Shown: piece by piece, positions 15,064 through 16,398 of the stretch
Numbering within the stretch: the first letter of the stretch is position 1
Layout of the letters: each line of letters starts with the position of its first letter
Translations under genes and position numbers: made by a program
Notes under the pieces: model-generated
Database searches by the model: none
Seen by the model: only the letters and a program-made list of their open reading frames with translations
What the model was told of the DNA's origin: nothing
From: Burkholderiales bacterium
GTDB lineage: Bacteria; Pseudomonadota; Gammaproteobacteria; Burkholderiales; Burkholderiaceae_F
Direction of reading: 5' to 3'
Length of the DNA: 64,000 bases
Assembly: GCA_020355165.1 (NCBI GenBank)
Contig: CP070661.1
Coordinates: forward strand, 1,736,193-1,800,192

Positions 15064-16398
15064 ATGCTATTTTCCATCGCCGCGTCCGCTCCGGAGAAGC
15101 GGCGATCACGCCGACTACCGAAGTTGCTGCAGCACTTGCTCCCCGGGCCGCGCGACGGCAGGCCTTTTCCCGAAAGGCGCACCGCCGGCGGGCTGCGGGT
15201 CGCGTTGGTGGCGCTGGCGATCGTCGTCGCTATCGCCGCCGCGCCGGCACAGGCGCAGGATGAGCAGCCGTCCTGGATCTCGCGCGCGCTCGGCGCGTTG
15301 AACGAGACCACGCCGGTGGGCCTGCTCGAGCGCGGTGAGCGGCATGCCGGAGCGAAGGGCTGGTTCGGCGACTTGTGGGAGGGTTCGCAGCGCAACTTCC
15401 GCGATGGCGATGCCGGGCTGATGCTGCCGTTCTTCACCTTTCACCCGGCTTACAAGTATCCGAACCGCGACGACAACAACAACTTTCCCTACGGCGTCGG
15501 CTACTCGCGCTCGGTGATCGATGGCAAGGACAACGAGCGACTCGTCTACGCGCTGGCATTCAGCGACTCGCACTACGACTTCCAGCCCATGCTCGGCTGG
15601 GCATGGGTGGCGCGCTGGCCGCTGTTCGGCAGCATCAAGGGCGGCCTCGGCTACGCCGCGTTCGTCACCGCGCGGGCCGATGCCAACTACTGGCCCTTCC
15701 CGGCCATCCTGCCGCTGGCCAGCATCGGCACCGACCGCGTGGCGATCTACGGCACCTGGATCCCGACCACCGAGGTGCTGTTCTTCTTCGCGCGCGTCAC
15801 GCTGCCGCAGAACGAAGGCTCGCCACCAGTCGCCGGCAGGGCGCCACCCGTGGGGCCGTTCGCCACCGGCCCGGGCCGCGGCGGCAGCGCGCGTACGAAC
15901 CTTCTCTACGCAGGGGGCGGCTTCGTCAATACCGACGCTTCGGGCATCGACACCGTGGCTTCGGGCAACTCGTGGGCGCCGCTGGCCGGCTACCGGCATT
16001 TCTTTACCGACCGGCTGGCGATGGACGTGGCCCTGTCGCGCTCCCATCACACGCTCGACCTGAACGGCGCACGGCTGGGCGACTTCGACCTGCTCCCGCT
16101 GAGCGTCACCGCGCAGTACCACCTGCCTGCCTACCACGGCTTCCGCATGTACGCCGGCGCTGGCATTGCGTATAGCCGCATCGCGCAGCAGAACATGCCC
16201 GGCTACAGCCTGTCCAACGACAGCTTCAGTCCGGTGCTGCAGGCCGGGGCCAACTTCCCGCTGAGCGACACGCTGGTGCTGACCGGGGGTTTGACGGTCA
16301 ACTTCGCGCGCCACCAGCTGTATCAGGACGGCTCGTCGCAAGGGACAGTAAAACTGGCGCCGGTCACGTTCGGTCTTGCGGTGGGTTACGCCTTCTGA
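15064..16398 (+). CDS. PagP-OmpW fusion: lipid A palmitoyltransferase-like plus OmpW-like barrel
   Basis: An outer-membrane protein of up to 444 residues. After a hydrophobic signal ([22 protein letters not shown], about residues 44-65) comes a PagP domain, residues about 95-255. It has the family pattern FHPAYKY...[13 protein letters not shown]...[19 protein letters not shown]...LPLASIG...TWIP. The predicted catalytic residues are His127, Asp168 and Ser169, matching His33, Asp76 and Ser77 of E. coli PagP. A proline/glycine-rich linker leads into an OmpW-like eight-strand barrel (about 275-444) with [27 protein letters not shown] and the terminal aromatic residue AVGYAF. The ATG at 15064 lies inside a TATGCT -10-like sequence, so translation may start downstream at a TTG or CTG. 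Gene fusion is directly visible; the activity is inferred. Confidence 0.85.

Follow-up and report, generated by a model that had tools for sequence, protein, structure and literature searches.

A PagP domain and an OmpW-like barrel domain joined in one chain in a bacterial family

PagP is a model outer-membrane enzyme known as a lone barrel; the stand-alone protein carries palmitate from a phospholipid to lipid A, as established for E. coli. In a 64,000-nucleotide stretch of a Burkholderiales genome (contig CP070661.1; hereafter the window), one gene seems to place PagP in front of a second barrel domain. The locus raises two questions: whether such a chain is real, and what a second barrel might do for a lipid-modifying enzyme to which it is permanently attached.

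One open frame with matches to two barrel families

The frame at 15064-16398 (+) starts with ATG, contains no internal stop and encodes 444 amino acids (Table 1). When its product was compared with Pfam, PagP (PF07017) matched residues 113-244 (108.4 bits against a cut-off of 24, E = 2.6e-31), OmpW (PF03922) matched residues 298-444 (49.1 bits against 24, E = 8.5e-13) and OMP_b-brl (PF13505) matched residues 281-444 (31.9 bits against 28.7, E = 1.8e-07). A preliminary description, made from the sequence alone, had proposed an N-terminal PagP domain and a C-terminal OmpW-type domain ending in an aromatic residue, and had suggested a profile search with both models; both were matched above their Pfam cut-offs, and the last residue is phenylalanine. 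The residues it had singled out as His127 and Asp168-Ser169 align with the His of ITWH and the Asp-Ser of AFKDS in E. coli, and its LPLASIG strand corresponds to LPLASVG there. The NCBIfam equivalog models missed their cut-offs, at 106.2 versus 155 bits for the narrower PagP model NF008271 and 14.8 versus 287 bits for the OmpW model NF008202. Among PDB sequences, the single window sequence found E. coli PagP at E = 6.4e-17 with phmmer, and a profile of the aligned fusions found the PagP chains at E = 2e-35.

In front of the PagP domain lies a long N-terminal region, laid out similarly in the relatives L033 and L003, with a likely signal cleavage site between AQA and Q. An extension of about 30 residues with a TTPxGL-like pattern precedes the PagP helix in the aligned fusions that reach that far. 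E. coli PagP lacks this extension, its mature form beginning at about its helix. The source genome consists of one 3.74-Mb contig (93% complete), in which no second match to the fusion protein, PagP or OmpW was found at E <= 1. It contains lpxC, and therefore production of lipid A can be expected. A promoter scan at the fusion gene found none, and a terminator scan returned one terminator-like site, inside the gene, against 0.8 expected.

Table 1 Features of the fusion gene, in window positions (strand limits within the PagP domain are presumed)
Feature	Position	Strand	Residues and basis
N-terminal region ending in signal-peptide-like stretch	15064..15255	+	aa 1-64; from translation
N-terminal extension of mature protein	15256..15354	+	aa 65-97; pattern ALxAxNxTTPxGL
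Segment at the place of the PagP amphipathic helix	15355..15402	+	aa 98-113; alignment with E. coli PagP
PagP domain, eight strands by alignment	15400..15795	+	aa 113-244; PF07017
His127 codon (E. coli mature His33)	15442..15444	+	His in 23/23 aligned fusions
Asp168-Ser169 codons (E. coli mature Asp76-Ser77)	15565..15570	+	Asp-Ser in 23/23 aligned fusions
Ala180 codon, at the place of E. coli Gly88	15601..15603	+	residue counts in alignment
Interdomain linker	15796..15900	+	aa 245-279; 35 residues
Second barrel domain, OmpW/OMP_b-brl, Phe end	15901..16395	+	aa 280-444; Pfam, alignment with E. coli OmpW
Stop codon TGA	16396..16398	+	

Distribution and genomic context of the fusion

To see how widely the arrangement occurs, we searched relatives of the source organism, as the preliminary description had recommended. 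In 22 of the 60 relatives searched with the window protein, the fusion lies in one uninterrupted frame. The family was then represented by 67 genomes from 18 genera, including the source genome; 40 of them, from 10 genera, encode PagP, in 41 copies whose frames are all at least 380 amino acids long. A fusion profile with 368 model positions, built from 23 aligned fusions, matched all 41 copies over almost its full length (from position 12 or before through to 368 of 368). Forty copies are free of stops, and that of G087 is interrupted by one in-frame TAG. All PagPs found in the family are fused, with no stand-alone PagP in the family genomes searched. The 18 copies outside the alignment, from 17 further genomes, are known from their profile matches, the G086 pair also from its neighbours. 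One named relative from the search of genome contigs, L033, comes from a Burkholderiales MAG and is identical to the G001 copy; L002, which equals L033, was left out of the alignments and the tree. L044, whose extracted frame a stop shortens to 51 amino acids, was left out of the tree and the residue counts, and L025, which equals L040, was left out of the residue counts and kept in the tree. The genome G086 carries two fusions in tandem (L085, 3641-4966 and 5156-6397), the sole duplicate among the 40 genomes with a fusion.

The fusion is absent from 27 of the 67 family genomes. Among the 39 of good quality (completeness of 90% or more, contamination of 5% or less), PagP is present in 27 and absent from 12, and the fusion is thus dispensable. 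In G030 and G075, the fusion profile matched over the second half only.

Outside the family, no fusion was seen in the samples searched. PagP was matched in 58 of 399 genomes of the order: eight family members, with frames of 389-539 amino acids, and 50 others in which no fusion was found, their 53 PagP stretches lying in frames of 72-417 amino acids. Just one of these 53 frames, in G159, exceeds 300 amino acids; at 417 it was considered as another fusion and rejected, as PagP ends the frame and a signal-like stretch stands just before PagP. A phylum sample (398 genomes, 25 with PagP in 30 stretches) held no frame longer than 252 amino acids besides the window's own, of 480. In a class sample searched with the fusion profile (369 genomes, 69 matched), both halves were matched in the window's own genome only, with at most five candidates scored per genome, such that a weak fusion could be missed. 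None of 170 matching plasmid records covered 80% of the window protein in one place, and the 15 plasmid matches listed fall on genes annotated as PagP. When viral contigs were scanned with a profile, 53 stretches matched a pattern, but none of them encodes a relative. Together, these surveys confirm the fusion as a real, conserved arrangement of one bacterial family; the proposal of PagP and a second barrel domain in one chain thus extends from the window to its relatives.

The surroundings of the gene were compared in 22 contexts (the window, L033 and a further 20 stretches, some of which stop at a contig end), with one representative gene of each kind named by Pfam. A class III aminotransferase gene, which we take to be hemL, lies downstream on the same strand in 16 of the 22, a DsbD-type gene occurs in 13 and an MraW gene in 11. 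The aminotransferase gene is absent from the compared stretch in the window, L033, L066, L067, L083 and L084. In L068, L070, L073 and others, dsbD often lies beyond the aminotransferase gene, with mraW/ftsI-type genes on the other side. In the window, by contrast, the fusion gene is preceded by a sodium:solute symporter gene on the opposite strand and followed by one for a TadA-like deaminase. The deaminase frame (16376-17524, +) has a DUF2087 match (E = 2.6e-08) at its N terminus, before the deaminase domain. No functional link to the neighbours was evident in the contexts compared.

Residues, linker and descent of the two halves

To assess whether the PagP half could still work as an enzyme, we compared the 23 aligned fusions, in all of which the PagP domain was matched, with 31 stand-alone PagPs of the order, using mature E. 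coli numbering. Equivalents of His33, Asp76 and Ser77, which we take to be the catalytic residues of mature E. coli PagP, are present in every fusion and in 31, 29 and 31 of the stand-alone proteins, respectively. Four prolines that are presumably tied to lipid entry are also largely retained in the fusions: Pro28 in 21 of 23, Pro50 in 15, Pro127 in 23 and Pro144 in 21. Judged by these residues, the PagP half looks active. At the place of Gly88, which we assume to be the floor of the hydrocarbon ruler in E. coli PagP, the fusions have Ala (11, among them the window), Gly (7), Ser (4) or Gln (1), and the stand-alone proteins Ala (18), Gly (12) or Val (1). Because Ala stands there in 18 of the 31 stand-alone PagPs, Gly88 reads as an E. 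coli-type trait and not as one that defines the PagP family. The last loop lacks four positions (145-148) in all 23 fusions, and it is also short in the stand-alone PagP L024.

Several other differences separate the fusions from stand-alone PagPs. Trp17, part of the helix clamp, is replaced by Phe, Ile, Leu, Val or Met in 23 of 23 fusions, compared with Trp in 21 of 31 stand-alone proteins. Arg is found at position 67 in all fusions versus 1 of 31 stand-alone PagPs, and at position 92 in all fusions versus none of 31; Pro at position 34 is fixed in the fusions and occurs in 0 of 31. Loss of Arg59 means little, since 25 of the 31 stand-alone PagPs lack it too. According to the accessible part of one study, the Trp17-bearing helix of E. 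coli PagP lies packed on strands 2 and 3 at their periplasmic ends (PMC2887491). The changes at 17, 67 and 92 may form one patch near the helix site, and this remodelled patch could be a docking place for the second barrel or for the N-terminal extension. As changes of one clade, however, they cannot be told from lineage drift.

In the second half, OMP_b-brl was matched at E <= 0.01 in 23 of 23 aligned fusions, OmpW in 11 and OmpA_membrane in 6; the best solved matches are AlkL (E = 6.3e-07), NspA (0.0019) and OmpA (0.0088). It aligns with E. coli OmpW over its whole length, and eight strands can be read from the alignment. In OprG, the accessible text of PMC2993939 places Pro69 and Pro94 at a lateral opening between strands 3 and 4. 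By our own mapping from OprG to E. coli OmpW, in which an alignment gap adjoins the first proline, that first proline is found in 0 of 23 fusions (the window has Ser) and in 2 of 4 stand-alone OmpW proteins of the order; the second is found in 4 of 23 fusions, the window included, and in all 4 stand-alone proteins. An OmpW-like fold therefore stands on the alignment, whereas an OmpW-type channel appears doubtful, the gate prolines being mostly missing, and the porin-like role offered in the preliminary description is weakened accordingly. AlphaFold2 runs with two-row alignments gave a mean pLDDT of 29.2 for the mature protein, with no strand at 139-254, and of 44.5 for the second domain, and nothing was drawn from either model.

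The linker between the halves has 35 residues in the window; two near relatives have 32 and 35, and the other 20 of the 23 fusions have 22-25, with exactly 23 residues in 16. Its description as rich in proline and glycine holds for the window and its close group but not for those 16 fusions, whose 23-residue segment has another make-up; outside the close group, the segment often has Asp-Asp towards its beginning and Pro-Leu halfway along. As stated in the accessible text of PMC2887491, the periplasmic turns of most known barrels are short. A joint of 22-35 residues is longer than such a turn, which speaks for two barrels over one merged barrel.

To trace the descent of the halves, a PagP tree was built from 56 sequences: 23 from fusions and 33 from stand-alone proteins, with E. 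coli PagP and one duplicate among the latter. All fused PagPs group together in a single clade (branch support 100/95), which was recovered in 100% of 200 bootstrap trees. Nearest to them is L024, a stand-alone PagP of genome G046 from another family of the order, whose place is unsure because of its long branch (1.19). Stand-alone PagPs of a family elsewhere in the class, f165, match the fusion profile well (E = 1.4e-31) and lie outside the tree, and the true sister of the fused PagPs may thus be other than L024. As the shortened last loop is common to L024, the shortening may predate the fusion. In G046, pagP is not followed by a barrel gene, as the next frame starts like PurD. Across the 23 fusions, pairwise distances of the two halves correlate (r = 0.86, with 0 of 2,000 permutations as high), as expected if both halves travelled together. 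The PagP halves of the fusions share a mean identity of 54%, the second halves one of 36%.

A probable tethered barrel and its known counterparts

On balance, we consider it reasonably likely that the protein is a PagP-type acyltransferase with a tethered OmpW/OMP_b-brl barrel that would serve as insertion signal, clamp or regulator. We infer two separately closed eight-strand barrels, the first with enzyme activity and the second with an insertion, clamp or regulator role. Because the catalytic site is kept, the PagP barrel would most likely transfer an acyl chain from an outer-leaflet phospholipid to lipid A (or phosphatidylglycerol), much like stand-alone PagP. For the second barrel, the most likely part is that of a permanently attached neighbour by which the enzyme is held or oriented and its activity adjusted; with its C-terminal Phe, this barrel probably also provides the signal by which the chain is inserted. 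A precedent for such tuning comes from E. coli PagP in liposomes. In the accessible text of that study, OmpA at about 1:1 cuts PagP activity to about 35%, truncated OmpA cuts it to about 45% and OmpX has no effect, and AlphaFold2 gave no confident PagP-OmpA contact, so that the precedent lacks a structural basis (PMC7617971). By analogy with this slowing of PagP by OmpA, a fixed 1:1 barrel partner is a plausible regulator. In a bolder version, which we think rather unlikely, the second barrel would be a built-in switch and clamp that replaces the helix clamp and OmpA-like neighbours and keeps the enzyme quiet while the membrane is intact, letting it act once outer-membrane asymmetry is lost. 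If that were true, no earlier case would be known to us of a lipid A enzyme under the control of a barrel from the same chain.

Other explanations have to be weighed against this one. That two adjacent genes were joined by a frameshift, a danger raised in the preliminary description, or by an error of assembly has practically no likelihood left: the source genome is a single contig with one open frame, nearly full-length copies, 41 in all, occur in 40 of the 67 family genomes, and those of 22 other genomes were read through and placed in the alignment. Alternatively, all 16 strands might close into one large barrel in which PagP catalysis is lost or changed. The topology of eight plus eight strands would allow this, but the fusions retain the residues for catalysis and lipid entry that belong to an eight-strand PagP, the joint is no short turn and each half aligns along its own family fold, making a merged barrel very improbable.

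Two further readings concern what either half does. The second barrel may be a working OmpW/AlkL-type channel for small hydrophobic molecules, with uptake or lipid supply coupled to PagP; the window's OmpW match, the OmpW matches in 11 of 23 fusions, AlkL as best solved match and the one gate proline kept in the window all point this way. Yet the first gate proline is absent from every fusion (as it is from two of the four stand-alone OmpW proteins) and the second from 19 of 23, and all 23 match the generic OMP_b-brl, so we regard a channel as distinctly unlikely. A PagP domain with changed specificity for chain length or acceptor, next to a second barrel that is mainly structural or an insertion aid, is somewhat less doubtful than that and still not probable. 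It would fit the variable residue at the place of Gly88 (Ala in the window) and the four missing loop positions; however, Ala is also the commonest residue there in stand-alone PagPs of the order and the short loop recurs in L024, so neither feature is tied to the fusion. The reading of an acyltransferase with a tethered partner barrel is the one we carry forward, and the arrangement itself suggests that the second barrel holds or controls the enzyme.

The preliminary description knew of no described example. No natural PagP-barrel fusion was found in the literature searched (titles and abstract beginnings, among the best-ranked papers of larger result sets), and to that extent the claim stands. 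It does not extend to multi-barrel outer-membrane proteins, a class that is already in the literature (Solan et al. 2021 PNAS, as cited in the accessible part of PMC11494523). GfcD, for which that same part of the source gives predicted barrels of 12 and 13 strands (PMC11494523), resembles the fusion in having two barrel domains in one chain. As far as the source describes it, GfcD is linked with capsule export and has a periplasmic domain between its barrels, whereas the fusion contains a lipid-modifying enzyme and both of its barrels are eight-stranded by alignment.

The separate halves also have known counterparts. With PagP of E. coli (PagP/CrcA, PDB 1mm4, 1thq and 3gp6), the fusion has in common the domain, the catalytic residues, the alignment along the barrel and a segment at the place of the helix. 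In contrast to the E. coli protein, a lone barrel that ends in its own Phe, the PagP half is followed by a second barrel, has a shorter last loop and a replaced Trp17 and, in the window, carries Ala at the Gly88 place. With the OmpW/AlkL/OprG family (PF03922) and OMP_b-brl (PF13505), the second domain of the window passes both cut-offs and aligns along E. coli OmpW; it departs from the OmpW family in that the gate prolines are mostly missing, OmpW is matched in just 11 of 23 fusions (E <= 0.01) and the domain lies behind another barrel. A fusion conserved in one family offers a natural test of how two-barrel chains are inserted when the C-terminal signal is on the last barrel only. It is equally a natural test of barrel-barrel control of outer-membrane enzymes, as OmpA and PagP of E. 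coli suggest in the accessible text of PMC7617971: there, a neighbouring barrel alters PagP activity as one of two proteins, and here the neighbour is part of the same chain.
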